25,440 bases of DNA. Source: a virus. Shown one piece after another: positions 3,103-24,717 of this stretch. The first letter of the stretch is position 1; every line of letters starts with the position of its first letter. A program made the translations under genes and the position numbers. The stretch lies in the IMG/VR virus record IMGVR_UViG_3300023179_000468, positions 1 through 25,440 of that record, one strand, 5' to 3'. The notes below the pieces were generated by a model. That model was given only the letters and a program-made list of their open reading frames with translations. It was not told where the DNA came from and ran no database searches.

Positions 3103-3211
3103 TTAATGTTTTCTCCGAGTTCACTGTTCTAACAGTATTATAGTTAATATTCAAGCCTTGAGGGCATGGTCCTGATTTAGGTGGTATTGTCTTTGTTAAT
3201 CTTTTAATCAC
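3062..3211 (-). CDS. Small basic phage protein, 49 aa, GTG start
   Basis: This short frame was read by hand. It starts at GTG 3209-3211, sharing one base with the TAG of the upstream gene (TAGTG), and ends at TAA 3062-3064, 41 nt inside the portal gene in another frame. The protein begins IKRLTKTIPPKSGPCPQGLN and ends very basic. The IPPKSGPxPQGL segment resembles a small protein often seen beside portal genes in phages, which supports a real gene. No function is known. The overlap implies translation coupled to the 1093-residue gene upstream. Confidence 0.55.
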   Translation of the reverse strand: MIKRLTKTIPPKSGPCPQGLNINYNTVRTVNSEKTLNGRNRQVATKRSR

Positions 3212-7819: not shown

Positions 7820-8662
7820 TTATCTTCTTAAGTTAGATAAATCTAATAATGTATAATTAGATAATGGGTTTATATTTTGACCTTGATATACAGTTTGATT
7901 TGTAGGTACTTGAACAGTTTGGGTCTTTAATAAATTTTCTAATCTTGTTCTAATTGAATCTGAAGTATTGTTTCCTGTTGATACATTAGTTAATGGAGCA
8001 TAATTTTGTATTGTAGTTATTCCACCACCTCCTGTAGAAGTTGCTGGTGCTGAAGATTGAACAGATTCTGTTGCTTGTGAAAAATCATTTGGTGCAGTTA
8101 CACCTCTTGAAATATTTCCAATTGCAGTATTAATTGCATTCATTGCAATTGCTGTTGGAGAAAATGCTGTATATGCATTAAAAGCTTGTCTTGCAAAATT
8201 TCCTATTTGACTCATGATTCCAGTAGCAGGTGCTGTTTCTACCGCAGGATTTTGTTGCATTCCAACTGTAGCTTCATCTGCTGCTGCTTGTGCTGCTGCT
8301 TCTGATGCTGCTTGATTAGACGCTGCATCATCTGCAGTTGAAGATCCCATAGTGTCTGCTTCTCCCATTCCCATTCCAGCATCTCCTGGTCCTGCTGTTC
8401 CACCATCATCACCTGCATCTCCTGTTGAATCTCCTTCTCCTCCGGAGTCTCCTCCTGAATCTCCACCATCACTACCATCTCCTCCGTCTCCACCTCCGTC
8501 GCCTCCACCACCATCTCCGCCTCCGTCGCCTCCACCTTCAAATTTTTTTCTTTTATATTTTTTAAGAATAGATTCTATCTCTTTGTCTGAAAGACCTAAT
8601 TTTTTTAAACTCGCTATAAATTCATTATCAGAATTTTTATATGCAATTGCTTTTTCAATCAT
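7820..8662 (-). CDS. Gly/Asp-rich low-complexity protein, 280 aa
   Basis: The protein starts with a Lys-rich helical segment of about 43 residues containing LGLSDKEIESILKKYKRKK. A tract of about 50 residues of almost pure Gly, Asp and Ser follows, coded by repeated GGA/GGC/GAC-type triplets at roughly 8385-8535. Next is an Ala/Gln/Glu-rich stretch and a hydrophobic Ala/Ile region (residues about 160-190). The C-terminus is Asn/Thr-rich. The acidic Gly tract could be a flexible linker or Ca2+-binding segment, but no canonical calcium-binding nonapeptide is clear. The gene starts just after the terminase stop. The opposite strand also stays open here, which is a by-product of the repeats. Confidence 0.7.
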   Translation of the reverse strand: MIEKAIAYKNSDNEFIASLKKLGLSDKEIESILKKYKRKKFEGGGDGGGDGGGGDGGGDGGDGSDGGDSGGDSGGEGDSTGDAGDDGGTAGPGDAGMGMGEADTMGSSTADDAASNQAASEAAAQAAADEATVGMQQNPAVETAPATGIMSQIGNFARQAFNAYTAFSPTAIAMNAINTAIGNISRGVTAPNDFSQATESVQSSAPATSTGGGGITTIQNYAPLTNVSTGNNTSDSIRTRLENLLKTQTVQVPTNQTVYQGQNINPLSNYTLLDLSNLRR

Positions 8663-8663
8663 T

Positions 8664-10136
8664 TTAATAATACGTCTTATTGTTTCTTATAATAGGTTCG
8701 TCTTTATAGTCTTCAGGATGATCTATAAATCCACCTTGTCTAAAACGCATGACTGCTTGTGTCATAGAATCTACAAGGTCATCATGATCCCCATAAGGAA
8801 ATGCTGCGCATTCCTCAATTACCTCTTGTGCAAATTCCTTTTCAACAGGAGCCCATATTTGACCTGATTCAAATAGTGGTGCCACAGAGTTAACTCTAGA
8901 GTGCTTATCATTCCCTCTAGAAGGTGTATAGTTTATAACAGGGATGCCCATTTTACGCAATTCATAAGTTAATGGTAATCCTGAAGCTTTAGCCTCAACC
9001 AATACAGTTTCTGGTTGCCAATACTGATATTGTTGATATGCTACACGTCGAAGCTCAGGAAATTCAAAACGATCTTTTACAGCATCAAGCAAAATGAGTT
9101 GAGGTCCTGAGTCTTCATTTCTTTGAAAAACTCCCCATGTTGTTATTGCTGAGTAATCCGCTGATTCTTTTTTTAAAAATGCAGTATCATAACTTTGTAT
9201 AACATGTTGTAATGGTGGAATATAATCCTTATCCCATTTCTGCCACCACTCACGTTTTATAATTGCACCTTCTTCTGATGTTGGATTTTGCATCCATTGT
9301 GCATTCCATTTTTGTAAACTGATGGATGCTTTTACTCCTTCTAATTCATCTAACTTCCAAAACTCTGGCCATACTGGTTTACCACTTGGAAGTATTGCAG
9401 GAAATTCTATGAGTTCCCATTTATCAGATTTAATGTTCCCCGATTCTCGCAGCAAGCTTCCAGTCAAATCCTTTGTGTTCCATCTTGTCATAACGAGTAC
9501 AATTGCTCCTCCTGGTTGAAGTCGCTGCCTTGGGCCGGACGTGTACCATTCGTGGGCTCGCTCTAATGCATCTATGTTCATTGCATCTTGTTCAGAATGC
9601 GGATCATCTATAATTAATAAATCTGCACCTCGACCTGTAATAGCGGAACCAACACCGGCTGCATAATATTCACCGCCTTGTTCTGTTTCCCATTTACCAG
9701 CAGCTTGAGAATCTTCACGAAGCCGAGTTGGAAATATTTCTTTGTACTCTGGCATGTCCATTAAAGTTTTAGCTTTTCGACCAAACCTTACAGCGAGTTC
9801 TGTAGTGTGAGTCGATTGAATTATTTTTAAATTTGGTTTACGCCCGATCATCCAAGCGGGAAGCAAGAAGCTGGCGAACTCGGACTTTGTATGTCGCGGC
9901 GGCATATTAATAATTAATCTTTTGATTTTACCATTTGCCAAGTCATTAAACTTTTCTGCAATTCTTTTGTGATGGGAGCCTTCAATAAATTCTGGCCAGA
10001 CACGTTTTACAAAAGACATAAAATCATTTTGTGATTTTTCTATTGCACGTTTTTGTGAAGCTAGTGTCGCGGCTTCAATAAATTCTTTTTGAATATCAGG
10101 TGGTAATAAATTTAATTTCTCTAAAGTCAGTTTCAT
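8664..10136 (-). CDS. terL: Terminase large subunit
   Basis: This is the 490-residue ATPase-nuclease that packages phage DNA through the portal. The N-terminal ATPase shows a Walker A-like segment IINMPPRHTKSEFAS (residues about 75-90), a coupling segment around IQSTHTTEL, and Walker B DLLIIDDPHSEQDA near residue 175. The C-terminal RNase H-like nuclease shows IQSYDTAFLKK (first acidic residue), LVEAKASGLPL, and PYGDHDDLVDSMTQA with the terminal Asp pair. The length is normal for the family. It heads the packaging/virion block, with a 220-nt gap upstream. Residues 232-245 (LTGSLLRESG) are coded by a 7-bp periodic, GC-rich patch at 9437-9464. Confidence 0.93.
   Translation of the reverse strand: MKLTLEKLNLLPPDIQKEFIEAATLASQKRAIEKSQNDFMSFVKRVWPEFIEGSHHKRIAEKFNDLANGKIKRLIINMPPRHTKSEFASFLLPAWMIGRKPNLKIIQSTHTTELAVRFGRKAKTLMDMPEYKEIFPTRLREDSQAAGKWETEQGGEYYAAGVGSAITGRGADLLIIDDPHSEQDAMNIDALERAHEWYTSGPRQRLQPGGAIVLVMTRWNTKDLTGSLLRESGNIKSDKWELIEFPAILPSGKPVWPEFWKLDELEGVKASISLQKWNAQWMQNPTSEEGAIIKREWWQKWDKDYIPPLQHVIQSYDTAFLKKESADYSAITTWGVFQRNEDSGPQLILLDAVKDRFEFPELRRVAYQQYQYWQPETVLVEAKASGLPLTYELRKMGIPVINYTPSRGNDKHSRVNSVAPLFESGQIWAPVEKEFAQEVIEECAAFPYGDHDDLVDSMTQAVMRFRQGGFIDHPEDYKDEPIIRNNKTYY
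9437..9464 (-). repeat. Cryptic 7-bp periodic patch inside terL (4 units)
   Basis: Read on the minus strand, four consecutive heptamers all have C at position 2 and G at position 5, for example ACTGGAA and GCGAGAA. The patch is GC-rich compared with the surrounding coding sequence. It lies over codons for LTGSLLRESG. A second, weaker run on the plus strand (9852-9872, CCAAGCG then GGAAGCA) lies opposite the region just after the Walker A motif. Confidence 0.6.
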
Positions 10137-10255: not shown

Positions 10256-10307
10256 ATTGGTATTTACCGAGGCAAAGTTAAATCTAAAGTGGATGGGACC
10301 TCTACGC

Positions 10308-10356
10308 CCCCGCCACTCGATGCTCGCACCGAGCGGCTAGAAGCTAGCGACTAGAC
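10308..10356 (+). repeat. Tandem heptamer array, CTAG/CGAG type (7 units)
   Basis: Seven contiguous 7-bp units each have C at position 2 and G at position 5, for example CCGAGCG, GCTAGAA, GCTAGCG. Because CTAG is palindromic, parts of the array also read in phase on the minus strand. It overlaps a short inverted repeat CTAGACT-C-AGTCTAG (10351-10365) covering the stop codon of the 88-residue gene. Confidence 0.65.
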
Positions 10357-10623
10357 TCAGTCTAGTAGTGTCATGTATTCGTTAGGAAAATGTTTAGAGA
10401 ACCAACTCAATCCCTTTTGCATAAGATCATACTCTTCTGTAACCTCGGCACCTTTAATCATATCATACACAGCAACAGCAAACCAAGGTAGGCTCGCAAC
10501 TGTACCGCTGTACATATTAGGTACATCAATTAGTTTTTCTTTTGGGTCTAGATTTAAATCTAAGTCAAAGGGTATTCTATACTCTTTGCCTTGCCAGTTT
10601 ATTACATGTAATGGTTTAGTCAT
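10357..10623 (-). CDS. Hypothetical protein, 88 aa
   Basis: This is a compact soluble protein of 88 residues starting MTKPLHVINWQGKEYRIPF. It has an acidic DLDLNLDPKEK stretch and a C-terminal half rich in aromatics (SLPWFAVAVYDM, LSWFSKHFPNEYM). I do not recognise the family. The ATG is preceded by the shared leader AACTAACAGAAAGGTATAAC, which also contains the stop codon of the upstream gene. It is therefore the last gene of the 12209-10357 cluster. Confidence 0.65.
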   Translation of the reverse strand: MTKPLHVINWQGKEYRIPFDLDLNLDPKEKLIDVPNMYSGTVASLPWFAVAVYDMIKGAEVTEEYDLMQKGLSWFSKHFPNEYMTLLD

Positions 10624-12534: not shown

Positions 12535-12608
12535 TTGATATACATTTAACAGACCTGCTTCTAGCAGCTATCTTGTTTACATTGTGGTGGATGGTATGGC
12601 AAAAATAA
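12531..12608 (+). CDS. Single-TM microprotein, 25 aa
   Basis: The frame runs from ATG 12531 to TAA 12606-12608. After an acidic N-terminus (MIDIHLTD) there is one hydrophobic helix, LLLAAILFTLWWMVW, then QK. GAGAAAG lies just upstream of the ATG. It overlaps the next gene by 13 nt. It belongs to a set of five membrane-type microproteins in this window. Function is unknown. Confidence 0.5.
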   Translation: MIDIHLTDLLLAAILFTLWWMVWQK

Positions 12609-12790
12609 AAAAAACATACCTGGACTTTACAGCCTATATCTGGCGGGACCATAAAGAATTAGATCCGGAATATATAAAGCAATGTAAAGCATTCCTGGCC
12701 CAGCTGCCGCGCCCTAACCCGTTTCAAGCTACAAGCAGCAAGCCTCAAGCTGCAAGCGACAAGCAGCAAGCACTTGACAAATCTAAATAG
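12596..12790 (+). CDS. Hypothetical protein, 64 aa, with repeat-encoded C-terminal tail
   Basis: I start this gene at ATG 12596 (MAKIKKTYLDFTAYIWRDHK). An in-frame GTG at 12584 has no support. The N-terminal 45 residues look like a real small domain ending in LPRPNPF. The last 20 or so residues (QAASDKQQAL and similar) are encoded by the tandem heptamer array at 12724-12772. The stop lies in the spacer of the promoter for the next gene. Family unknown. Confidence 0.6.
   Translation: MAKIKKTYLDFTAYIWRDHKELDPEYIKQCKAFLAQLPRPNPFQATSSKPQAASDKQQALDKSK
12724..12772 (+). repeat. Perfect tandem heptamer array, NCAAGCN x 7
   Basis: Seven uninterrupted 7-bp units of form N-CAAGC-N (for example TCAAGCT, ACAAGCA) give exactly 49 bp. 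The array encodes the C-terminal tail of the 64-residue protein and ends two bases before the TTGACA of the next promoter. Two related arrays lie on the far side of the Gp88 gene. Confidence 0.9.
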
Positions 12791-12801
12791 TGGATTATAT
12801 A
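12774..12801 (+). promoter_or_regulatory. Sigma70-like promoter for the Gp88 gene
   Basis: TTGACA (12774-12779), a 16-nt spacer and TATATA (12796-12801) read rightward. The -10 box lies in the third copy of the 13-mer GGATTATATAGGA (12792-12804). The predicted transcription start, about 7 nt past the -10 box, coincides with ATG 12808, so the transcript may be leaderless. The AGGA in the 13-mer is only three bases from the ATG, a poor Shine-Dalgarno spacing. Confidence 0.6.
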
Positions 12802-12807
12802 GGACAT

Positions 12808-13413
12808 ATGAAAGTAACAGAATTAGATCAAATCACCGGCACCCTGTCAAAGCCTTCTAAGATGCCAGGCTGGAGCTACGGTATACCTGCTAAAGAATGC
12901 AAAACAGGTTCTAAGCTTGCAAAAATACCAGGCACTGTCTGTCACGGCTGCTACGCTCTGAAGGGTTGCTATGTATTTCCTAATGTACAAGAAGCTCAGT
13001 ACAAGCGACTAGCAGCAATTGATCACCCTCTTTGGGTCCAGGCAATGGCAGCTCAGATCTTACGCCATAAGTCAAAATGGTTCCGATGGCATGACTCTGG
13101 AGACATACAATCATTAGAACATTTAAAAAAGATATTCGAAGTATGCAAACTAACGCCAGATGTTAATCACTGGCTCCCGACGCGAGAAGCTTCTATTATA
13201 GCATGTATAACCCCTGAAGAGGTTCCAGCTAATCTTATTATACGAATTTCAGCAACTAAAGTAGATGGCAATCCACCTACTTTCTGGCCTTATACCTCCA
13301 GTGTAGTAACTGAAAACAAAACATGCCCTGCAGCGGAGCAGGATAATAAATGCTTAAGCTGTAGGGCGTGTTGGGATCGCAATGTTAAAAACGTTGCATA
13401 TGGTAAACACTAA
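12808..13413 (+). CDS. Gp88-domain Cys-rich phage protein, 201 aa
   Basis: The protein matches the 'Gene product 88' family seen in many phages. Signature segments are PSKMPGWSYGIPAKECKTGS, AKIPGTVCHGCYALKGCYVF, VQEAQYKRLAAIDHPLWVQAM, FRWHDSGDIQSLEHL and the C-terminal Cys cluster CPAAEQDNKCLSCRACWD. The clustered Cys suggest metal or Fe-S binding, but the biochemical role of the family is not known to me. I start it at ATG 12808, because the ATG 18 nt upstream lies inside the promoter. The gene is visibly more GC-rich than most neighbours, sits on the opposite strand, has its own promoter and is bracketed by heptamer arrays. These are signs of a separately acquired cassette. Confidence 0.8.
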   Translation: MKVTELDQITGTLSKPSKMPGWSYGIPAKECKTGSKLAKIPGTVCHGCYALKGCYVFPNVQEAQYKRLAAIDHPLWVQAMAAQILRHKSKWFRWHDSGDIQSLEHLKKIFEVCKLTPDVNHWLPTREASIIACITPEEVPANLIIRISATKVDGNPPTFWPYTSSVVTENKTCPAAEQDNKCLSCRACWDRNVKNVAYGKH

Positions 13414-13414
13414 C

Positions 13415-13552
13415 ATGGCCCGATATCATAACTATCACTCATACCGGGGAGACTCGGGGTCGGGCCGTAACCCACAAGCCGCAAGCAACAAGCACCAAGC
13501 GTCAAAGCTGCAAGCAGCAAGCGTGCCAAGCTTCAAGCGCCAAGCGTCTTGA
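13415..13552 (+). CDS. Small repeat-tailed protein, 45 aa
   Basis: The ATG follows the Gp88 stop by one base and the frame runs to TGA 13550-13552. The first 20 residues (MARYHNYHSYRGDSGSGRNP) are His/Tyr/Gly-rich. The rest is encoded by the heptamer array at 13474-13546 and gives QAASNKHQAS, close in composition to the tail of the 64-residue protein (QAASDKQQAL). It overlaps the 3' end of the convergent nuclease gene by 20 nt. It may be a non-coding 3' region, but its position and matching tail favour translation. Confidence 0.4.
   Translation: MARYHNYHSYRGDSGSGRNPQAASNKHQASKLQAASVPSFKRQAS
13417..13466 (+). terminator. Hairpin after the Gp88 gene
   Basis: GGCCCGA (13417-13423) can pair with TCGGGCC (13460-13466). 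The intervening bases hold a further GC-rich stretch (CCGGGGAGACTCGGGG). No T-tract follows, so termination is uncertain. Confidence 0.3.
13474..13546 (+). repeat. Tandem heptamer array, NCAAGCN type, about 10 units
   Basis: Units such as ACAAGCC, GCAAGCA and CCAAGCG follow each other with two small phase slips (an 8-bp and a 9-bp unit). The array covers the 3' end of the 45-residue frame and the last bases of the convergent nuclease gene. Confidence 0.85.
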
Positions 13553-13901
13553 ATTTTTGATATATTGATTCGAGCCCCAAGCAGCAAGCATCAAGCTTCA
13601 AGCCGCAAGCAGCGAGGGACTGGATGCTAGAGCCTTCATAAAGTTTTAGAAGCGAGTCTCTTTCAGAAGAAACTAGGATAAAAGTATTCTTAGGATGCCT
13701 TACATGGAAGCTAATTTGATGGGGACTTAGCTTAACAGAATTACCTTTTGCAACCTTTAATTCAACAGTAAAAAAAGTATGATTTTTATTATACGCCAAT
13801 AGATCTGGAGTGCCAAAACCGCTTAAATTTTCTAGCCTTGTGAAAGATATTTCAGGCATAAATTTTTTAACTTTATGCCAAAGTTTTCGTTCAGGTTTCA
13901 A
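13533..13901 (-). CDS. VRR-NUC-like PD-(D/E)XK nuclease, 122 aa
   Basis: The start MKPERKLWHKVKKFMPEISF is followed by the catalytic layout SGFGTPDLLAY (Asp) and FFTVELKVAKGN (E-x-K), then VKLSPHQISFHVR and NTFILVS. This is the order of the VRR-NUC / Holliday-junction-resolvase-like nuclease fold. The C-terminal part (SLAACGLKLDACCLGL) is encoded antisense to the heptamer arrays at 13577-13632 and 13533-13546, so the tail is repeat-derived. Likely roles are recombination or DNA processing. It starts 5 nt after the 75-residue gene. Confidence 0.75.
   Translation of the reverse strand: MKPERKLWHKVKKFMPEISFTRLENLSGFGTPDLLAYNKNHTFFTVELKVAKGNSVKLSPHQISFHVRHPKNTFILVSSERDSLLKLYEGSSIQSLAACGLKLDACCLGLESIYQKFKTLGA
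13577..13632 (+). repeat. Tandem heptamer array, CAAGC grading into CGAG/CTGG/CTAG, 8 units
   Basis: The first five units are N-CAAGC-N (CCAAGCA, GCAAGCA). The last three change core but keep the phase and the C2/G5 pattern (GCGAGGG, ACTGGAT, GCTAGAG). This transition links the overt CAAGC arrays to the cryptic CGAG/CTAG patches found elsewhere in the window. Confidence 0.8.
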
Positions 13902-15379: not shown

Positions 15380-16072
15380 CTATTGAGGATTTACGCCATT
15401 TTTTAAATTATAGTACATGTCCACTCGTCTCAACCATTCCGACTTGTAGTCTCTAAAACGTTGTCCGTTGATTATAAATCTTTGAAAAAATAAATCAGGT
15501 GTACATACTAAAACCACTATTTGTTCTATATTTGTGTCATAAATACAATCATGAGCTGAACTGTATGCAGCACCTTGTAGATAATAATCTGTTATCCATT
15601 CATCTCTCTTTGGTTTATTTGATTGTTTAAAGTCAATAATACTGTCTCTTCCTTGATACACACCAACTAAATCTGTTTGTCCTGCATACAAATCTGGATA
15701 ATATAGTACAACCTCATTGCCCCATATTTCTTGTAAATCACCTAATCCTTTATCAATTATAGTTTGTGCCATGCTCCTCGCCACTCCCCCCTCGTCGCTC
15801 AAATCTAGTAGCCCTTGCCCGTTTAAATGGTATTCCAAATACGAGTGCATTGCAGTGCCACGTGTTGCTGCAACATTTTTAACGCGTTCTGCTTCAACTT
15901 CACCAACCTTTGCTTTCCATTTAGCCAAAGACTCTCGTTTCTCGCTGCTCGCTGTTGCACCTAGTATCGTGGTCACAGAAGGGAGCTTCGAGGATCCAAT
16001 TTCATAGTGTCTCTCGTCTTTAATCAAAGATCGCATAGACTTTGGGTACTCGTATAGTTTATTCCATTTCAT
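15380..16072 (-). CDS. RecB/lambda-exonuclease-like PD-(D/E)XK exonuclease, 230 aa
   Basis: The fold order is clear: KLPSVTTILGAT, RGTAMHSYLEYHL (His of motif I), YYPDLYAGQTDLVGVYQGR (Asp), SIIDFKQSNKP (D-x-K), and YYLQGAAYSSAHD (Q-x-x-x-Y). This is the RecB/Cas4-like exonuclease layout used in phage DNA recombination and end processing. Its ATG shares a base with the stop of the 49-residue gene upstream. Two stretches, TASSEKRESLAK and DLSDEGGVARS, are coded by cryptic 7-bp periodic GC-rich patches (15925-15952 and 15775-15809). Confidence 0.82.
   Translation of the reverse strand: MKWNKLYEYPKSMRSLIKDERHYEIGSSKLPSVTTILGATASSEKRESLAKWKAKVGEVEAERVKNVAATRGTAMHSYLEYHLNGQGLLDLSDEGGVARSMAQTIIDKGLGDLQEIWGNEVVLYYPDLYAGQTDLVGVYQGRDSIIDFKQSNKPKRDEWITDYYLQGAAYSSAHDCIYDTNIEQIVVLVCTPDLFFQRFIINGQRFRDYKSEWLRRVDMYYNLKNGVNPQ
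15775..15809 (-). repeat. Cryptic heptamer patch in the exonuclease gene (5 units)
   Basis: Minus-strand heptamers such as ACTAGAT and ACGAGGG keep the A4-G5 core in all five units. They code DLSDEGGVARS with unusually GC-rich codons. Confidence 0.55.
15925..15952 (-). repeat. Cryptic heptamer patch in the exonuclease gene (3 strong units)
   Basis: GCGAGCA and GCGAGAA are followed by ACGAGAG and a weaker unit, TCTTTGG. The patch codes ASSEKRESLA. It aligns well with the first polA patch (21786-21813), which begins with the same GCGAGAA unit. Confidence 0.6.
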
Positions 16073-16283: not shown

Positions 16284-16551
16284 CCACGTAATATATCTCA
16301 ACGCCCAACGTTTTCTGTTTTTTCGATACAGAACGATTAATTGTGTCTCCTGGTTTACAGTTATAACTTTGGCTCTTACGACGAGATATGGTTTTAACAT
16401 CAAGTAAACGGGTTTTACCTTTCTTATCAACGACAATAAGATCAAACGGACATTGTGGATCCAATGATTTAGTAACATAATAACCTTTCTTTAAAAATTC
16501 TTGAGCGGCGATTAATTCTGAACATACTCCTTTTATTGTTTTAGTTGTCAT
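16273..16551 (-). CDS. PD-(D/E)XK nuclease/resolvase-like protein, 92 aa
   Basis: The layout is KGVCSELIAAQEFLKKGYYV (helix with Glu), CPFDLIVVDKKGK (catalytic Asp) and TRLLDVKTISRR (D-x-K). A basic stretch and IYYV strand follow. This matches small Holliday-junction-resolvase-like PD-(D/E)XK proteins related to some homing or restriction-type nucleases. It is short but has all three motif positions. It overlaps the HNH gene by 11 nt. A shadow frame inside it (16218-16478) is not a gene apart from its last 21 codons, which form the TM microprotein. Confidence 0.75.
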   Translation of the reverse strand: MTTKTIKGVCSELIAAQEFLKKGYYVTKSLDPQCPFDLIVVDKKGKTRLLDVKTISRRKSQSYNCKPGDTINRSVSKKQKTLGVEIYYVDGN

Positions 16552-17149
16552 TGTTAATTTCTATTTCTTCATTTTCATTAAAAATTTCTTTTTTATTTAA
16601 AGATAATTCCCACATTTTATATACAAGGTCATTTGGTAATCTTGATTCAATAGTAGGTCCTGTTGAATTTTTTTCATGAGTAGTCCATTCTAAATTATTA
16701 GGTCTATAATCTACCTTTAAACCATTAATATGATTAACTAAAACATGAGTTTTAGGATCTGGATTTGGATTAAACGCAAGACATACTAATTTATGCATTT
16801 GCATTTTTATATTAGAACCATCATCAAACATTAAACCTATTTGAGAATAGAATCCTTTATTTGGCATAATCCTTGGTAAAATTGCATATACAGATCTTTT
16901 TCTTTTAGTTTCTTTTATAACTTCCACCCATGGCCAAATTTGTTCTTTAAATATAGGCGCAACATTTTCAACATTATGAAAAAAATGAAATCCACCTGTA
17001 GAATGTATTTTATATTTTCCTTTTGGAAGTAATTTTAATTGAGGGTGATCTATATCTTCTAACGCTACAGTATTGGAAGGTATTGCATTACCTGTTTTTA
17101 CATTAATAATTAAAGGTTCAAATAAAGTTAATTGCTGCATATAGCCCAT
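16541..17149 (-). CDS. HNH endonuclease, 202 aa
   Basis: The C-terminal half carries the HNH_3 type core: MHKLVCLAFNPNPDPKTHV, then LVNHINGLKVDYRPNNLEWTT with the His-Asn-His-type residues, followed by a helix. The N-terminal 90 residues are unlike typical homing nucleases and may be a DNA-binding or target-recognition part. It could be a free-standing homing nuclease or a packaging-associated HNH. Start choice is between ATG 17149 and ATG 17140 (MQQLTLFEP). The first codons overlap a TM microprotein in another frame. Confidence 0.8.
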   Translation of the reverse strand: MGYMQQLTLFEPLIINVKTGNAIPSNTVALEDIDHPQLKLLPKGKYKIHSTGGFHFFHNVENVAPIFKEQIWPWVEVIKETKRKRSVYAILPRIMPNKGFYSQIGLMFDDGSNIKMQMHKLVCLAFNPNPDPKTHVLVNHINGLKVDYRPNNLEWTTHEKNSTGPTIESRLPNDLVYKMWELSLNKKEIFNENEEIEINNDN

Positions 17150-17205: not shown

Positions 17206-17852
17206 ATAATTTTATTGTTAATATCGTAACCAGTTTGTAATTCTTTATTTCTTACATTTACAAATATAACATCCATACCCATAATCACAGCATCACCAAT
17301 ATTTATTTCATCAAAGGTTGCAATCTCAAAACCTATTTGATGTAAATAACCAATTACTTTACCAGCAGAAGGTGCACCAATATTATAATTATGTGGTTGT
17401 AATTCTAACCATAAATATTTTGCATTGTGAATAATTCCAGGAGATCCTTGGATAATATCAAGTTCAGCTCCTTGAACATCCATTTTAATTAAATCAAACT
17501 TTTGTGTAGGTAATAATGATTCTAATGTATAACATCTTTTTTTAATCGTTTTAAATGGAACATTGGTGTTTTCTTTATAGATTCCATTACCATGATTATT
17601 ATTTTTATCATCACAAATATAATAATCTATTTCTTTGTTTTCTTTACCAAGCAATGCAGTCATATAAGGACCCACCTTTATTAAATCATTAATATGATCT
17701 TCATTAGCTTCAATCATTAATACTTTTGAATTTGGATATTCTTTTTTAAACTCAGTCGTCCATTTACCTTTATGAGCGCCGATATCTAATACAGAATCAA
17801 ATTGTACTTTATGTAGTTTTAAAAACTCAAAAGCTTTAAATTTATAGATCAT
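17184..17852 (-). CDS. FkbM-family SAM-dependent methyltransferase, 222 aa
   Basis: VLDIGAHKGKWTTEF is the SAM-binding motif I, VLMIEANEDHIN the acidic loop, and FDLIKMDVQGAELDIIQG the hallmark FkbM segment. The C-terminus has AKYLWLELQPHNYN and an IGDAVIMGMDVIFVN strand. FkbM enzymes O-methylate sugars or small molecules. In a phage it might modify host glycans or phage products. I start it at ATG 17852, which overlaps the stop of the 29-residue microprotein (TAATG). A GTG 60 nt upstream would only translate that microprotein's region out of frame. Confidence 0.85.
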   Translation of the reverse strand: MIYKFKAFEFLKLHKVQFDSVLDIGAHKGKWTTEFKKEYPNSKVLMIEANEDHINDLIKVGPYMTALLGKENKEIDYYICDDKNNNHGNGIYKENTNVPFKTIKKRCYTLESLLPTQKFDLIKMDVQGAELDIIQGSPGIIHNAKYLWLELQPHNYNIGAPSAGKVIGYLHQIGFEIATFDEINIGDAVIMGMDVIFVNVRNKELQTGYDINNKIIWAGYPH

Positions 17853-18199: not shown

Positions 18200-18513
18200 G
18201 TTATTTTTACATCTGCAAATTTACGTTTACCATTTACGGTGTAATTCCAGATTATTCCTTTCTTAATTAAATCGTATCTTTTTAGTTTTTCAAATGTTTG
18301 CTTTGGATCAAATCCAGCAAACTCACATAGTTCAATAAAGTCTTGATTATAAACTTTACCAAAGCATTTAGATTCTCGCCACTCGTCTCTAGACATTGCA
18401 ACGGTGCATATGCCAAAAGTGTCTTGAATCGCTTGCATAAATACTGCACGCCAAAGTTTTTGTTCTGGTGTTGCAGGTCTTGCATCAGCTTCTAAACTAC
18501 TTAAGTTTACCAT
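18196..18513 (-). CDS. Hypothetical conserved-type phage protein, 105 aa
   Basis: The motifs ARPATPEQKLWRAVFMQAIQD, SRDEWRESKCFGKVYNQDF and ELCEFAGFDPKQTFEKLKR resemble a common phage protein of unknown function whose C-terminal helix pair may bind DNA. The codons for SRDEWRES carry a three-unit heptamer patch at 18373-18393. It overlaps the ribbon-helix-helix gene by 17 nt, so the two are probably co-expressed from the 18692-18720 promoter. A shadow frame inside (18282-18485) is ignored. Confidence 0.7.
   Translation of the reverse strand: MVNLSSLEADARPATPEQKLWRAVFMQAIQDTFGICTVAMSRDEWRESKCFGKVYNQDFIELCEFAGFDPKQTFEKLKRYDLIKKGIIWNYTVNGKRKFADVKIT
18373..18393 (-). repeat. Cryptic heptamer patch (3 units) in the 105-aa gene
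   Basis: The units are TCTAGAG, ACGAGTG and one GCGAGAA, in perfect 7-bp phase on the minus strand. A weaker fourth, TCTAAAT, follows. They code SRDEWRE. Confidence 0.55.
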
Positions 18514-18856: not shown

Positions 18857-19061
18857 GTCTTTTTATATAATCTTTATCTGTCTCATTAAGTTTTAAATAC
18901 TTTATATGTCCGTTGATATATTGTCTAGTATCTTCACCACAATTTGTGCATCTATAATAGTCTTGTACAATTGCTACTAGAAATGCTTCTGTCTTACATT
19001 CAGGACAAATTCCAAGAACATTATCAATAAACATAGATGAATTAAATTTTAGTTTTTGCAT
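18831..19061 (-). CDS. Zinc-ribbon protein, 76 aa
   Basis: CPECKTEAFLVAIVQDYYRCTNC contains two C-x-x-C pairs 15 residues apart, a classic zinc ribbon. It is followed by a helical, charged tail. The ATG overlaps the last base of the M15 reading frame. Zinc ribbons of this size often act in transcription or as protein adaptors. The specific role is unknown. Confidence 0.65.
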   Translation of the reverse strand: MQKLKFNSSMFIDNVLGICPECKTEAFLVAIVQDYYRCTNCGEDTRQYINGHIKYLKLNETDKDYIKRHGTKSSNR

Positions 19062-19515
19062 TACATTACTGTGTAAATAATCCTACCATTTAATTTTTGT
19101 GCATTCAAATATTGTTTTCTATTACCTGAATCGTTATAACTGCAATGAACCCATCCAGAATTAGGATCGTTAGGGTTCCAAAATTCTAATATACATTGAT
19201 CGTAATCAAGATTTTTTACTATCCAATCACTTACGTCTTTATTATGTATGCCAAATAGTTCAAAATCGGCCGCCTGTCCCTTGTATGTTGACTCCCGCTG
19301 CTCGATCCTATTGCCTCGCATAAAGCTGCTGATCTGTAGCCAGAAGAAATAGATACTGGAATTTTAAAATGATTTCTTACAGGTTGTAATATATTTTTAC
19401 AAAGTAAAATTAAATTAGTTACATGTTCATCACTTGGTTCATTTGGTATTCCAAGTCGTATTGCTTCTTGTGACTTTGTTAATTCATCTAATGTAAAATT
19501 TTCACTTAGTCTCAT
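19061..19515 (-). pseudogene. Peptidase M15 endolysin split by a -1 frameshift
   Basis: Frame one (19515 leftward) gives LSENFTLDELTKSQEAIRLG, SISSGYRSAALCEAIGSS and SGSQHT, the N-terminal part of an M15_3 D-Ala-D-Ala type peptidase. It then runs out of family sequence. Frame two picks up exactly where the family continues: KGQAADFELFGI, then NLDYDQCILEFW and GWVHCSY. The zinc ligands are thus split: His of SQH, Asp of AADF, His of WVH. One base inserted near 19282 (ACAAGGG to ACAAAGGG) would rejoin them. Real mutation, assembly error or programmed shift are all possible. No canonical slippery heptamer is seen. The shift lies inside a heptamer patch. Confidence 0.8.
19271..19319 (-). repeat. 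Cryptic heptamer patch (7 units) at the M15 frameshift
   Basis: Seven consecutive minus-strand heptamers run from GCGAGGC to ACAGGCG. Five have both C2 and G5, one lacks C2 and one lacks G5. The phase is unbroken across the frameshift site, which lies in the ACAAGGG unit. Part of it is nearly identical to the polA patch at 22556-22576. Confidence 0.65.
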
Positions 19516-19530
19516 AAATTAAAAATAATA

Positions 19531-19704
19531 TTACCATTTTTTTAAGGGACAACTTGCGTATTTTAATTTAGTTTTCCATTTTAAAGGACAACCACATTTT
19601 CTACATTTTATTTTTTCTTTATTATAATGTTCACATGGCATACAAATATTTAATCTATCTTCTTGTGTTTTTTCATCAACTAAAATTATATTTTCTAATA
19701 GCAT
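19531..19704 (-). CDS. Small Cys-rich zinc protein, 57 aa
   Basis: The frame was read by hand from ATG 19702-19704 to TAA 19531-19533. The Cys pattern CMPCEHYNKEKIKCRKCGC, then CPLKKW at the C-terminus, is shared by many small phage proteins of unknown function (C-x-x-C, C-x-x-C-x-C, C-P-x-x-x-W). It sits between the two wall hydrolases, 5 nt after the glucosaminidase stop, without a strong ribosome-binding site. Confidence 0.65.
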   Translation of the reverse strand: MLLENIILVDEKTQEDRLNICMPCEHYNKEKIKCRKCGCPLKWKTKLKYASCPLKKW

Positions 19705-19709
19705 ATTAA

Positions 19710-20309
19710 TTATTTATTTCTTAATCTTTGTATAACTTCAATAACATGTTTTTCATATTCTTTATTTGTTGAAAAGTTATCTAAAGTTTTTGCCATTAAA
19801 ATAGGATCTTTATTTAATGTAATTTCCCTAACTTTTCTAAATTCTGAATACGCTCTTTTTGTATTTAGAATTTCTATGTAATATCTAACAGATTCGCATT
19901 TGTTTTTAAAGACCCTGACACGCCATTCTATATGATCTGGTTGTTTATATGGCAACATTCCTTCTTTTGACCATACCCGTATACCAAACAGATTATGCCC
20001 TTCTCGTGCAAACCGAGATGTTCCATAGTTAGATTCAACGATTGCCTGTGCTATTATTAGTTCTGAGTTTACTCTTTGTCGTTTCGGGATATTGAAATTT
20101 AGATAATTGATACAGTTATTAAGGGAGGAGATGAATTCTTTGTTGTTTGAGTACTCAAACCTCGGGACACCAAACCCAAGTTTTATGGCCCAGTTAACGG
20201 TTTCCGTCTGGACCTTCCTCTTGGCGGCTGGATTTGGAAAGAATGTACCTAATACAAATGCTAGTAGAGCTACTATCAAATATTTTATTACTATACTCTT
20301 TATTGTCAT
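19710..20309 (-). CDS. Membrane-anchored glucosaminidase (Bax/FlgJ-like), 199 aa
   Basis: I start at ATG 20309, giving MTIKSIVIKYLIVALLAFVL, a signal-anchor helix. A TTG 33 nt upstream is less likely. The catalytic region has LIIAQAIVESNYGTSRFARE (conserved Glu) and GHNLFGIRVWS, then ILMAKTLDNFSTNKEYEKH, as in the Bax/mannosyl-glycoprotein endo-beta-N-acetylglucosaminidase family that cuts peptidoglycan glycan strands. The N-terminal anchor suggests a signal-arrest-release type or periplasmic lysin. With the M15 gene broken, it may be the functional endolysin. Two plus-strand frames opposite are shadows. Confidence 0.8.
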   Translation of the reverse strand: MTIKSIVIKYLIVALLAFVLGTFFPNPAAKRKVQTETVNWAIKLGFGVPRFEYSNNKEFISSLNNCINYLNFNIPKRQRVNSELIIAQAIVESNYGTSRFAREGHNLFGIRVWSKEGMLPYKQPDHIEWRVRVFKNKCESVRYYIEILNTKRAYSEFRKVREITLNKDPILMAKTLDNFSTNKEYEKHVIEVIQRLRNK

Positions 20310-20362
20310 GGCATTTACAATGTTGGGATAAGCAGCATCCAACTGCTAGGTTGTTGATACAA

Positions 20363-21022
20363 TCAGTCTTTTTTGACTTCATTAACTTGGTAAAACATAT
20401 TGTCCGTATCCTCTGTTAACCAGTTTTTGTTTTCCACATTCCATTTACTAGTTTGTACTTTATAATCTGGCCAATGTGATGCAGTAGTAAAACTAGGCAC
20501 ATTCCAAAGAATGCGATTGTTAGGCATGATAGCGTAATTACCGTTATCAAGAGCCAGAACATGCCCACACTTATGTTCTTGAGGGATTTCAGAATGTTCT
20601 GTGTCCAATATATTACTTTCTGGATGCGCCCAGTCAATAGTAAATAAATATTCACCATGATAAAATTTCTTTGATTTACCTATGTATTTGCATCTTTGAC
20701 CTTTTAAAAAATCAAAAACAGTAACACTAGGATAATAACTAAATGAATTCCATAACTGAAGATCTTCGAGATCTTGATGTTCCATTTCTCCTTGATGCAA
20801 AGCAGAGCTTCTTCTGTTTTGAACAAATGCAGAGATAGGGAGTCTCCAATATATTGCACCGTTTGTAAGTAGCGCATGAAATAAGAGTGCACGACCGCTA
20901 ATACTCCCCAAACCAAATACCACACAGTCTTCAGTTTCGCCTTGATGTTTTCGTAAGTCATATAAATATTCTCTCCTTATCTTACAATAAATTGGTGGTA
21001 TATTTGCATTTAAATATGCCAT
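20363..21022 (-). CDS. Hypothetical replication-region protein, 219 aa
   Basis: I start at ATG 21022 (MAYLNANIPPIYCKIRREYL), two bases after the polA stop. A TTG 6 nt upstream is unlikely. The protein is soluble with many aromatics: CVVFGLGSISGRALLFHALL, GAIYWRLPISAFVQ, FYHGEYLFTIDWAHPESN, HKCGHVLALDNGNYAIMPNN. I recall similar proteins next to DNA polymerase in marine phages but know no function. The ordered loops and the C-terminal W-P-D-Y-K segment suggest an enzyme or scaffold. Two other minus frames inside (20416-20658, 20704-20961) are shadows. Confidence 0.65.
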   Translation of the reverse strand: MAYLNANIPPIYCKIRREYLYDLRKHQGETEDCVVFGLGSISGRALLFHALLTNGAIYWRLPISAFVQNRRSSALHQGEMEHQDLEDLQLWNSFSYYPSVTVFDFLKGQRCKYIGKSKKFYHGEYLFTIDWAHPESNILDTEHSEIPQEHKCGHVLALDNGNYAIMPNNRILWNVPSFTTASHWPDYKVQTSKWNVENKNWLTEDTDNMFYQVNEVKKD

Positions 21023-21024
21023 AA

Positions 21025-22884
21025 TCAATCATAAATATCTCCCCATGTTTCGCCGCTTTCATAATCAACTTTGTTAGGGATTGCCAAAGTTACAGCGTTC
21101 TCCATTATTTCAACAATCTTTTTTGCATGATTGTCATCTATAACAGAAATATCTAATTCATCATGTATTTGAATGTGTGGAATAATTCCTTCATTATATA
21201 AATCTAACATTGCTTTCTTTGTCATGTCGGCTGCTGATCCTTGTATTAATTTATTTAATGCTTTGTAAGTCATTGCTCTTCTAATTCTACCACGTCCGTA
21301 AGTTCTTTCAGCTTCTTCAAATGACATTGCAGTGTGCATTCCAAATGTAGCAGGTTCCCATTTATTAAATCTACAACGACGACCAAGTAATGTTCCAATT
21401 GATCCTGATGTTTGTGCAAATTGAGATGTCTTATTCATTAATTCTTTTACAAATGGAACGTTTTTATGATATTGATTAAATAATACTTCAGCTTCTTCTT
21501 TTGTACTCAATCCAAGTTCAGCTTGTAATTTTGCTTTACCCATTCCATAAAATAATCCAAGGTTAATTGTTTTTGCTTGATCTCTAGATATACCTGCCAT
21601 ATCAGCAACAGTTTTGTGGAAGTCTACTTTGTTGTCTTTAAATTTTTCTACGATATCTGTAACAGAATCATCAAAACAAATTGGCTCAGTTGTTGCTGCA
21701 TAATGTACAACAAGTCTTGGTTCTTGTTGTGAATAGTCAAAACATCCCCATTTATGATTAACTTCTGGCAAAAATAAACTTCTTATCATAGGTCCTAGAT
21801 CCTTGTTTCTCGCTGGGATTTGTTGGAGATTAGGATTAGCATATGAAAATCTACCAGTAACTGTACCACCTTGATCGGATCTTATTGGATTAATATCAGC
21901 ATGAATTCTACCTTTATGAGTAAATCTTAATATTGAATCAATAAATGTTGAATGAGCTTTATTTAATTCTCTTGCTTTTGCAATCTTTTGAACAAGTGGA
22001 TGTTTATGTTCTTGTAAAAAGTTTTTAGTAAATGAAGGTTCATTTGCTTTTTCTGTTCTATCGTAATGTAATTTTAAATGATCAAACATTTTAGCAATAC
22101 TTCTTGCTGCCATGATTTGCACATCTAATCCTGTTTCTTTTTTAACTTCTAATAATAAATTCTGTTCTTTTAATACAAGTTCTTTTTTTAATTTATCAGC
22201 TCTTTCTATATCTATTCTTACTCCATTAAATTTCATATCAATAAGACATGGAAATAATTGAGTTTCTAAATCAAATACATTTTGTAAATTTTGTTTTTGT
22301 ATTTCACGAGATAAAACTTTAAATAATTCTAATGTTAATTGCGCATCTTTTTCTGCATAAGATCCAACATATAATGCAGGAAGTTTATACATTTCAGACT
22401 TAGGATCTATTCCCCAAGACTGAGCTGCTTCTGTTAATGCTTTCTCATCTTTAACATCACCAAGAAATTCATATGAAATACTATTTAATGTATAAGACAA
22501 TCTATTTTCATCAATTAATGATGCCATCACCATTGTATCTACAATATGTCCATTGATTTTGATTCCCGCTGCTCGAAGCCAGCAAACGTCATACATTGCA
22601 TTGTGAAATATTTTTACATTATCTGCAGCACAAATAGATTTAATCCAACTCATGACTTTGTCATGTTCTAAATTACCACCACCTTCATGAGCAATCGGAT
22701 AATAACCTGACCATCCATCTACAGCTACTGCAATACCCACAATGTTTCCATTACCAATAATCGCACCTGAACCTTTTGATTTAAGATCTGGATCTTTAGT
22801 TTCTAAATCTATTGCAATATATTTATATCCTTTTAAATCAGGATAATTGTCTGGACAAATCCATTCTTTCTGAGCTTCAAACAT
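21025..22884 (-). CDS. polA: DNA polymerase A with 3'-5' exonuclease, 619 aa
   Basis: The N-terminal proofreading domain shows all exonuclease motifs: YIAIDLETKDPDL (Exo I), KIFHNAMYDVCWLRAAG (Exo II), VGSYAEKDAQLTLELF (Exo III). The polymerase domain shows FDYSQQEPRLVVHYA (motif A), RDQAKTINLGLFYGMG (motif B) and IPHIQIHDELDIS (motif C). No 5'-3' exonuclease domain is present, as usual in phages. Motif B has Leu at the position equivalent to E. coli Pol I Phe762. Two 7-bp periodic GC-rich patches lie in conserved segments: ARNKDLGPM (21786-21813) and CWLRAAGIK (22556-22583). The ATG directly follows the stop of a 23-residue microprotein. Confidence 0.95.
   Translation of the reverse strand: MFEAQKEWICPDNYPDLKGYKYIAIDLETKDPDLKSKGSGAIIGNGNIVGIAVAVDGWSGYYPIAHEGGGNLEHDKVMSWIKSICAADNVKIFHNAMYDVCWLRAAGIKINGHIVDTMVMASLIDENRLSYTLNSISYEFLGDVKDEKALTEAAQSWGIDPKSEMYKLPALYVGSYAEKDAQLTLELFKVLSREIQKQNLQNVFDLETQLFPCLIDMKFNGVRIDIERADKLKKELVLKEQNLLLEVKKETGLDVQIMAARSIAKMFDHLKLHYDRTEKANEPSFTKNFLQEHKHPLVQKIAKARELNKAHSTFIDSILRFTHKGRIHADINPIRSDQGGTVTGRFSYANPNLQQIPARNKDLGPMIRSLFLPEVNHKWGCFDYSQQEPRLVVHYAATTEPICFDDSVTDIVEKFKDNKVDFHKTVADMAGISRDQAKTINLGLFYGMGKAKLQAELGLSTKEEAEVLFNQYHKNVPFVKELMNKTSQFAQTSGSIGTLLGRRCRFNKWEPATFGMHTAMSFEEAERTYGRGRIRRAMTYKALNKLIQGSAADMTKKAMLDLYNEGIIPHIQIHDELDISVIDDNHAKKIVEIMENAVTLAIPNKVDYESGETWGDIYD
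21786..21813 (-). repeat. Cryptic heptamer patch 1 in polA (4 units)
   Basis: GCGAGAA and ACAAGGA, then TCTAGGA and CCTATGA, in exact 7-bp phase, code ARNKDLGPM. Three units have C2, A4 and G5; the fourth keeps C2 and A4. Confidence 0.6.
22556..22583 (-). repeat. Cryptic heptamer patch 2 in polA (4 units)
   Basis: GCTGGCT and TCGAGCA, then GCGGGAA and TCAAAAT, code CWLRAAGIK. The last three units match the M15 patch (19285-19305) at 19 of 21 positions although the reading frames differ. Confidence 0.65.
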
Positions 22885-23182: not shown

Positions 23183-24717
23183 AGTATAGGTTCTCCTGGT
23201 ATATAGTTATAAAAATCATCCATATCTGATTGCATGATATAAAGATTTTCTTTTGCACGTGTTACACCCACAAAAAACAATCTGTGTTCTGGATCAGGTT
23301 TTTTTAATGCGGCTTCATATATAATCTTTTCCATTCCTGTAAATAAGACTACATTTTCGCATTCTTCACCTTTGACACCATGTATTGTGGATACTTTAAT
23401 TCTTGCTGGTTTAAATAAATCATCACCATTTTCTAATAATGCTTTCATATATAATTTTGAATCTTGTCTTATTTGTAATTGTTCCCAGCTTCCCGTCACT
23501 CGCAACCCGTGATTCATCATCAGATCATCAAGATCTACATAGTCTACGACGTCCAAAGATTTACCTCCTGAAAAATTTTCTTTAATTAAACCTGCCTTAA
23601 CTGTTAAATATTTATAAATTTTTTTAGCTTCTTCTGCTCCGACAGTTGCACCCTGATTTAATCTTACCCAAACTCTATATGCTTCCAATAATTTATTTGG
23701 CAGTAAGTCATTGATTTTACTATCAAATCTAAGGTTTAAAGATATTAAATATTCTTTGATTGGATCTAACATTTTATTAGTTCTAGCTATAATCATCCAT
23801 TCATCTTTACTAAAATCTAAATTTTCTATTGATTCGTTATGATAAACTTTTCCTTCTGCATCTCTTGGTAACCATGCTTTAATCATTCTATTTTCTATAT
23901 TGTCTAATATGCTTAAGGCCACTTTATGTACAACTCTTGGAACCCTTCTTGATTCTATTCTAGGATCCATCTCACCTTTTAAATTTATAAATATATTTTC
24001 ATCAGCGCCTTGGAACGTATAGATAGTTTGATCGTCATCCCCTGCAATGTATGATCGCTCACATTTTGATTCAATGTAATTGAACATATCCCATTGCAGA
24101 GGATTCAGATCCTGCGCTTCATCAAGAAAGACAGCGTCGAGAGAGGGACACTTATCTTTCTCAATAAACTGTTTAATCATATCAGAGAATTCAATCATAT
24201 TTGTTTGTTCTTTGTATGATTTTAAATCTGCTTCAATTTGTTCTGTTAAATATATTTCAACAGAATATTGTTTATCTAATTCATGAGCTGCATCAAGTAT
24301 TGAAAGTTTTTTAGCTCTTGCATACTCAATAATTTTCATATGATCATTTTTATATTGAGGAAATCCAAATTCATTAGTTTCATAATCAAAACTTAAATCT
24401 TTACATATTTGTGAAAAATTTTTAAATGCATTCCATTTATCACCTATTAATAATTGTAAATTAGTATCTATATTTAATTGTCTTGTTCCTAGTGTGTGCA
24501 TAGTGGATACGTATGGAAAATCTTTTTTAATATCTAATCTTGGAAATACTAATTGAATTCTTTTTTTAGATTCTACATCTGCGGCATTACTAAAAGTAAT
24601 GTATGCAATTTTTTTAGTAGAAGTTTTATATTCTTCAACTTCTTTTACTAAATATTTATTTATTAAATGATATGTTTTACCGGTTCCTGGAGGACCTGGT
24701 ATTATTATTCTTTTCAT
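23179..24717 (-). CDS. SF1A DNA helicase, UvrD/Rep-like, 512 aa
   Basis: All core motifs are present in order: IIIPGPPGTGKTYHL (Walker A, motif I), KKIAYITFSNAA (Ia), AVFLDEAQDLNPLQW (motif II), YIAGDDDQTIYTFQGAD (motif III), WMIIARTNKMLDPI (IV), VSTIHGVKGEECENVVLF (V) and HRLFFVGVTRAKENLYIM (VI). At 512 residues it is shorter than cellular UvrD, lacking large 1B/2B insertions. It would unwind DNA 3'-5' in replication or recombination. The residues around GLRVTGSWEQ are coded by a heptamer patch at 23483-23510. It overlaps the upstream gene's stop (ATGA). Confidence 0.92.
   Translation of the reverse strand: MKRIIIPGPPGTGKTYHLINKYLVKEVEEYKTSTKKIAYITFSNAADVESKKRIQLVFPRLDIKKDFPYVSTMHTLGTRQLNIDTNLQLLIGDKWNAFKNFSQICKDLSFDYETNEFGFPQYKNDHMKIIEYARAKKLSILDAAHELDKQYSVEIYLTEQIEADLKSYKEQTNMIEFSDMIKQFIEKDKCPSLDAVFLDEAQDLNPLQWDMFNYIESKCERSYIAGDDDQTIYTFQGADENIFINLKGEMDPRIESRRVPRVVHKVALSILDNIENRMIKAWLPRDAEGKVYHNESIENLDFSKDEWMIIARTNKMLDPIKEYLISLNLRFDSKINDLLPNKLLEAYRVWVRLNQGATVGAEEAKKIYKYLTVKAGLIKENFSGGKSLDVVDYVDLDDLMMNHGLRVTGSWEQLQIRQDSKLYMKALLENGDDLFKPARIKVSTIHGVKGEECENVVLFTGMEKIIYEAALKKPDPEHRLFFVGVTRAKENLYIMQSDMDDFYNYIPGEPIL
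23483..23510 (-). repeat. Cryptic heptamer patch in the helicase gene (4 units)
   Basis: ACGGGTT and GCGAGTG, then ACGGGAA and GCTGGGA, all with C2 and G5 in 7-bp phase, code GLRVTGSWE. The patch is strikingly GC-rich against AT-rich flanks. Confidence 0.6.

Follow-up and report, generated by a model that had tools for sequence, protein, structure and literature searches.

Short GC-rich patches in an AT-rich genome are familiar from yeast mitochondrial DNA, where the GC clusters are insertions. Repeats with a seven-base unit have been described in bacteria as heptameric simple sequence repeats, namely GGGAATC in Xanthomonas and GGGGA(C/T)T in Nostoc, in a paper that also cites tandem heptanucleotides in Calothrix; the Xanthomonas and Nostoc repeats have near-exact, G-rich units, are under-represented in coding regions, and are thought to form quadruplexes (PMC4692102). 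Here we analyzed a 25,440-base viral record that is itself a fragment (IMG/VR record IMGVR_UViG_3300023179_000468, positions 1 to 25,440; hereafter the window), in which the family A DNA polymerase gene (polA) has its closest annotated phage counterparts in the Pelagibacter phages HTVC027P, 023Pt_psg01, and HTVC023P. A first-pass annotation made from the sequence alone had picked out near-identical 21-bp segments in polA and an M15 peptidase gene, and had proposed that this and other heptamer patches are nucleic-acid elements that move, convert or converge. We found that the two segments belong to a single family of degenerate heptad tracts in which CNNGNNN recurs with a period of exactly 7 bp, and that this family extends over many unrelated pelagiphage genes.

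The motif-free evidence for this family came from a screen of all two-base skeletons at periods 4–12 in coding sequence, scored against synonymous-codon shuffles. In the clade of relatives, which was collected by similarity to polA, M15, and terminase, the top skeleton was C at position 0 and G at position 3 with period 7 (CNNGNNN), with 183 cases of four in-phase units versus 5.2 expected. The same skeleton ranked first in polA relatives that lack the polA patch (44 vs 0.7), and again when two cultured phages, HTVC023P and HTVC027P, were taken together (17 vs 1.3); it was not in the top list for T4 plus P-SSM2, where the top signals of this screen were 9-periodic. Within clade open reading frames (ORFs), which were called mechanically, CGRG followed CGRG in excess at a lag of 7 (145 vs 3.7), 14 (67 vs 3.8), and 21 (18 vs 3.5), with nearby lags at 0–4, and the ORFs of the window held three consecutive CNRG units six times versus 0.0 expected. 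Since orthologues recur in the clade set, raw counts overstate independence, and the safer figure is 22 independent site groups (gene positions) with a frame split of 11/6/5. Neighboring units outside the seed pair were enriched for C and G in phase, and coding units, mostly CGAG, CAAG, or CTAG, had mainly these C and G positions in common. The dress of the tracts varied with their place, being mostly CGAGCRR or CGRGNNN on the sense strand of genes and CAAGCNN in gene-end and intergenic arrays, and the purine-rich form favored the sense strand (198 vs 6.3 expected, compared with 57 vs 4.5 on the antisense strand). With excesses of ~10- to 60-fold over synonymous-codon shuffles, in all three frames and with a 7-base period, the earlier view that the patches are features of the nucleic acid held up.

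The two segments that drew attention to the family, and the genes that contain them, are as follows.
19285–19305, minus strand: first-reader segment in the M15 peptidase gene, CGAGCAG CGGGAGT CAACAT, 19/21 with polA, three in-register heptads
22556–22576, minus strand: first-reader segment in polA, CGAGCAG CGGGAAT CAAAAT, 19/21 with M15, apparent single-origin replacement tract on the polA tree
19061–19515, minus strand: M15 peptidase gene, with a break in frame 3' of the segment (Pfam PF08291 on 19231–19515 only)
21025–22884, minus strand: family A DNA polymerase gene (Pfam PF00476, PF01612)

Minus-strand 19305–19285 reads TCGAGCAGCGGGAGTCAACAT and 22576–22556 reads TCGAGCAGCGGGAATCAAAAT; direct comparison gave 19 of 21 bases in agreement, the first 13 being identical, as had been reported. 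The frames differ, again as reported (TCG AGC AGC GGG AGT in the M15 gene, CGA GCA GCG GGA ATC in polA), and the proteins are unrelated by Pfam domain (Peptidase_M15_3 versus DNA_pol_A with a 3'-5' exonuclease domain), so that the likeness is indeed not one of protein homology. Both segments consist of three units in one register, CGAGCAG-CGGGART-CAAMAT. Just 3' of its segment the M15 gene changes frame (frames 19231–19515 and 19061–19321) where relatives read through in one frame, and this break is either an assembly error or a real frameshift.

The first-pass annotation had suggested estimating the chance of such a match. A score of 19/21 is not by itself rare in the window, which has 17 merged pairs at or above it over both strands, mostly AT-rich. 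The M15/polA pair is GC-rich (12/21) against a genome of 32% GC, and it was the one pair observed that had at least 11/21 GC, lay at least 60 bp apart, and joined different genes, versus 0.007 expected when bases were shuffled in 25-bp blocks and 0.113 when synonymous codons were shuffled within genes (P ~0.11). Because protein sequences and codon pools make such a pair only mildly unlikely, with about one in nine windows having one under synonymous reshuffling, and since the first-pass annotation could have picked its pair from many places, the pair taken singly is weak evidence, at best suggestive, and not the best single piece of evidence it had been held to be. Its significance rests on the family of heptad tracts to which it belongs.

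When the polA segment was compared across ~110 relatives, one group read CTT CGA GCR GCR GGV RTC and the others mostly YTA AGA GCA TAY GGN ATA. The patch is an ungapped, length-preserving replacement at one codon position (CTT CGA GCG GCG GGN RTC for YTA AGA GCA TAT GGA ATA), and the insertion that had been considered for it is not what the homologues show. On a polA tree made leaving out the patch codons, the patch state changes once, with 34 rows on one side and a support of 80. Because 8–10 of the 18 bases differ across a branch of 0.021 changes per site, the patch looks like a single replaced tract that was subsequently inherited with third-position drift. The M15 block switches between two allele classes 6–11 times on a short, weakly supported tree, a pattern that fits allelic exchange among M15 homologues.

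A permutation test led us to reject gene conversion between M15 and polA: among 24 genomes whose polA sequences are at least 77% identical, M15 and polA segments from one genome agreed at 13.04 of 21 positions versus 13.01 when permuted (p 0.45), i.e., copies in one genome were not more alike than copies between genomes. Across all 54 genomes the segments were more alike than permuted (9.96 vs 8.75), as would be expected with both patches restricted to a single clade. We also rejected a mobile-element insertion, since the alignments of polA, terminase, and portal are ungapped, and we saw no insertion-type presence/absence polymorphism in these three genes. Thus, of the proposal that the patches move, convert or converge, only convergence stood, conversion failing the permutation test and movement being at odds with the one origin and fixed codon position of the polA patch. 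Nor did we see the same codons in distant phages without heptamers, which the annotation had taken as the pattern that would speak against it; distant polA homologues lack the patch, and patch carriers have heptads in other genes. These comparisons support independent evolution of the M15 and polA segments within genomes, the pair probably representing two independent arrivals at a similar sequence.

The polA segment also falls in one of a set of compositional blocks. GC at third codon positions (GC3) was flat across orthologues at 0.10–0.20 in most genes, except for sharp blocks of ~12 codons at fixed places, among them polA amino acids (aa) 98–110 (the first-reader segment), terminase aa 83–95, and portal aa 482–494, each above its shuffled maximum; in the clade the polA block reached 0.60 versus a shuffled 95% maximum of 0.41. 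The blocks were weak or absent in more distant orthologues, and in some of them GC was kept while the codons turned over. Block counts were ~9-fold over codon-shuffled counts in the clade (125 vs 13.8; 168 vs 19.8) and 2.5- to 5-fold in other relatives, with no excess in T4 (4 vs 3.9). Ordinary GC3 patchiness of AT-rich phages was rejected, as T4 and P-SSM2 are without it, and so was protein conservation as the driver of codon choice, the correlation of GC3 with amino-acid conservation being rho ~0. A word common to the blocks, AGCRRCGRG, was present in ORFs 49 times versus 3.4 expected and 55 times versus 6.6 expected, and its occurrences were not limited to a single frame; as it was derived from the same sequences, the skeleton screen above is the motif-free result.

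We located further coding tracts in the window, several of them with a heptad profile that was trained without the window and then scanned over it ("profile scan" below). A loose scan at thresholds 7–12 found only ~1.3- to 3-fold more than the null, and weak tracts are individually untrustworthy.
19270–19346, minus strand: M15 heptad tract of 11 units, including CGAGGCA ATAGGAT CGAGCAG CGGGAGT CAACATA CAAGGGA CAGGCGG (profile score 37.6)
22562–22582, minus strand: polA run CTGGCTT CGAGCAG CGGGAAT (profile scan; GC3 block aa 98–110)
21792–21812, minus strand: second polA run CGAGAAA CAAGGAT CTAGGAC
23482–23509, minus strand: helicase-like gene run CGGGTTG CGAGTGA CGGGAAG CTGGGAA (profile scan)
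15760–15822, minus strand: exonuclease gene tract with TGAGCGA CGAGGGG GGAGTGG CGAGGAG (score 31.1; orthologues)
15931–15951, minus strand: exonuclease gene run CGAGCAG CGAGAAA CGAGAGT
9436–9463, minus strand: large terminase run CTGGAAG CTTGCTG CGAGAAT CGGGGAA (profile scan; orthologous site in 29 ORFs)
9854–9874, minus strand: large terminase run CCAGCTT CTTGCTT CCCGCTT, adjoining the Walker A region (GC3 block in 52 terminases)
1869–1889, minus strand: portal gene run CTGGATT CAAGCAA CGAGGAA, synonymous changes only versus most relatives
18365–18392, minus strand: small gene run CTAGAGA CGAGTGG CGAGAAT CTAAATG (profile scan; orthologues in 13 ORFs)

The portal site at 1869–1889 is the cleanest case of a tract arising by in-place replacement. 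The window and two relatives read CTY CCY GCT GGN TTC AAG CAA CGA, and the others, nearest tree relatives included, mostly read TTA CCN GCN GGA TTT AAA CAA AGA; the changes are all synonymous, and the density of their cluster ranked 2–5 among 810 windows in the gene. At this tract the window and one relative (L307) have a single synonymous difference in 11 codons, versus nine in the 30 codons flanking it, and two changes are required on the tree; their near-identity suggests that exchange between homologues may spread an existing tract. In polA, terminase, portal, and helicase alike, bases are replaced and protein length is unchanged. Together these cases support the view that the conserved-gene tracts arise in place, through clustered base replacements that leave length unchanged and are in part or entirely synonymous, and are afterwards inherited with drift. 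Because tracts of this kind arise in place and are then inherited, the likeness of M15 and polA is best supported as convergence onto one pattern, not transfer between genes. Apart from its heptad tract, the portal gene has a nearly invariant stretch at codons 474–490 (~1631–1680, minus strand; GGG GAT GGG AAT CAG CAA GCA GCA GTG GGC ACG ACC GTG) across ~20 portal genes whose proteins diverge by as much as 20%, with unusually low synonymous change.

Outside conserved genes the pattern takes the form of arrays at gene ends and between genes, in which the small ORFs were read by eye.
10299–10375, strand not assigned: intergenic array upstream of terminase, on the minus strand CTAGTCG CTAGCTT CTAGCCG CTCGGTG CGAGCAT CGAGTGG CGGGGGC (score 43.4)
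12718–12773, plus strand: array of seven perfect CAAGCNN units that closes a small ORF preceding a GP88-like gene (profile scan)
13454–13551, plus strand: CAAGCNN array downstream of the GP88-like gene (profile scan)
13571–13633, plus strand: CAAGCNN/CGAGNNN array, 3'-terminal in the nuclease-like gene 13901–13533 (score 44.9)

The CAAGCNN arrays and the mixed CTAG/CTCG/CGAG array of the window all fit CNNGNNN. Over 12599–13550 (plus strand) CAAGCNN arrays lie on both sides of the GP88-like gene, in or beside the C-terminal tails of small ORFs; HTVC027P has arrays at 16500–16648 and 17397–17438, on either side of gp33, and HTVC023P has a coding heptad tract in terminase. Elsewhere, CAAGCNN arrays occur in more than 100 viral contigs and in many bacterial genomes, where arrays of at least 4 units are found especially in Pseudomonas, Stutzerimonas, Halomonas, and Alcanivorax. 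Three other genes of the window deserve mention. The homologues in five relatives of a ~1000-aa gene (3211–6492, minus strand) have a hypervariable N-terminal region following a conserved YLTRKP, and tandem coding heptads fall in their variable part. A glycine-rich low-complexity protein gene (7820–8662, minus strand) supplies, within the window, the most GC-rich repeat pairs and also gives rise to spurious heptad scores, and 16541–17149 (minus strand) is a phage-type HNH endonuclease gene.

The explanation toward which we lean, with modest confidence, is a family of heptad tracts that originated in situ and is selected as nucleic acid read by a protein. The pattern would be kept by selection since a protein reads the heptads, and our leading guess for this reader is an oligomer or filament that would contact the C and G, with one subunit per 7-base unit. 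The C and G are alternately 3 and 4 bases apart, a mean step of 3.5 bases that corresponds to about one-third of a helical turn, and such a spacing would suit a groove-following protein or a filament that steps seven bases per subunit. DNA as the target is favored because the C..G skeleton is strand-symmetric, being its own reverse complement, and RNA because the purine-rich dressing prefers the sense strand; either DNA or mRNA may be what is read. In its fullest form, which we put forward tentatively and would not bet on at even odds, HTVC023P-type pelagiphages would carry a second code, a strand-symmetric CNNGNNN written by synonymous or near-neutral replacement at fixed places in replication, packaging, and portal genes, expanded into gene-end arrays, and read by a heptad-stepping protein.

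Several results weigh against the explanation we favor. At synonymous skeleton positions C/G was retained at 0.63, versus 0.65 at other in-site positions (p 0.48) and 0.53 elsewhere (p 0.07), with few positions to compare, and purifying selection limited to the skeleton positions is not supported by this test; an earlier version had favored the skeleton (0.59 for the expected base versus 0.34 G+C, p 2e-5) but had one site in the wrong register. Since the skeleton test was negative and did not demonstrate selection, mutation or recombination may instead have written the pattern. No conserved RNA structure was found on the sense strand of polA (z -0.5) or terminase (z 0.6) when energies were compared with column-shuffled alignments. 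Antisense scores were z -1.6 to -2.0 for terminase and, for portal, z -3.2 and -0.9 with the two window sizes, and an extreme z in a helicase-gene window was an artifact of a shuffled null with almost no variance. Many orthologous copies also inflate the raw counts, though the 22 independent groups remain.

Recombination could account for the spread of the pattern if CAAGCNN arrays or the alleles of relatives donate short tracts by gene conversion, the heptads being an unselected by-product of copying. The repeated switching of the M15 block, the near-identity of the portal tract in the window and L307 with the two changes its tree needs, and the arrival of the polA patch as one multi-base replacement are all in keeping with this. 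However, the M15, portal, and polA patterns fit exchange between homologous alleles and not ectopic copying, which would give near-identical units where mainly the C and G positions are shared; in addition, M15 and polA are no more similar within genomes than permuted, and GC-rich near-identical pairs between genes are few (one observed), so we regard this account as unlikely. Tandem slippage, by which the tracts would be ordinary heptamer microsatellites, we consider very improbable. Head-to-tail 7-bp units are present, period 7 is far over other periods in both coding and intergenic sequence, and the intergenic and gene-end arrays vary in length from 2 to 13 perfect units, but whole-unit likeness with copy-number change by indels is not seen, the conserved-gene tracts being length-preserving. 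The tracts of polA, terminase, portal, and helicase keep protein length, whereas a 7-bp slip would shift the reading frame, and the two N positions of perfect viral CAAGCNN runs take all 16 dinucleotides.

A 7-base-periodic mutational or repair process, e.g., one acting where DNA is covered by a protein whose footprint is 7 bases, could instead write in-phase C and G with no function. That the tracts preserve length and are rich in GC although the genome is AT-rich, that the variable bases of the unit look free, and that skeleton positions were not seen to be retained better than their neighbors would agree with such a process. Against it, tracts occupy identical codon positions throughout entire clades, and some blocks hold their GC despite codon turnover, which a passing process would not maintain. 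We know of no mutational or repair process with a 7-base-periodic C/G signature, and we judge this origin improbable. Coincidence, by which two conserved protein motifs in GC-rich codons match by chance, is about equally improbable; P ~0.11 for such a pair is in its favor, and it was already disfavored in that both segments bear a period-7 pattern found in large genome-wide excess.

A seven-base rhythm that ignores reading frame in unrelated essential genes means that selection or an undescribed process acts on phage nucleic acid besides its proteins. If a protein reads the heptads, what they mark in these SAR11-infecting phages could be packaging, replication, recombination, or the control of mRNA, and HTVC023P-type pelagiphages are among the most abundant viruses of the ocean. 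The pattern is testable, as the cultured isolates HTVC023P and HTVC027P carry it. It also calls for caution, since in genomes of this kind the heptad pattern, and not horizontal transfer or gene conversion, can be the source of GC-rich islands and short repeats. Our literature search found nothing on point for pelagiphage heptamer repeats or a 7-bp coding periodicity, although papers mentioning HTVC027P exist, and no such repeat came up in the searched text of PMC9599517 and PMC12753301; nor did the search find a paper describing the bacterial CAAGCNN arrays.

Compared with known systems, the phage tracts share with the Xanthomonas and Nostoc repeats a seven-base unit, dispersal over the genome, few units, and an intergenic form near gene ends. 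Unlike those repeats they keep mainly a C and a G 3 bases apart, lie inside conserved genes by replacement, and do not have G-runs as a rule; with units mostly CGAG, CAAG, or CTAG and a strong enrichment in ORFs, they do not group with quadruplex-forming heptamers. The bacterial CAAGCNN arrays of Pseudomonas, Stutzerimonas, Halomonas, Alcanivorax, and others equal the phage gene-end arrays in unit and period, but the bacterial stretches examined, unlike the phages, had no coding excess of CGRG at lag 7 (88 vs 97.7 expected). Allelic short-tract recombination and mosaicism in phages resemble the M15 block, whose states switch between lineages, and leave unexplained why an exchanged or new tract is 7-periodic in unrelated genes. 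Yeast mitochondrial GC clusters are likewise GC-rich patches in an AT-rich genome, and differ in being insertions where the phage tracts are length-preserving replacements.

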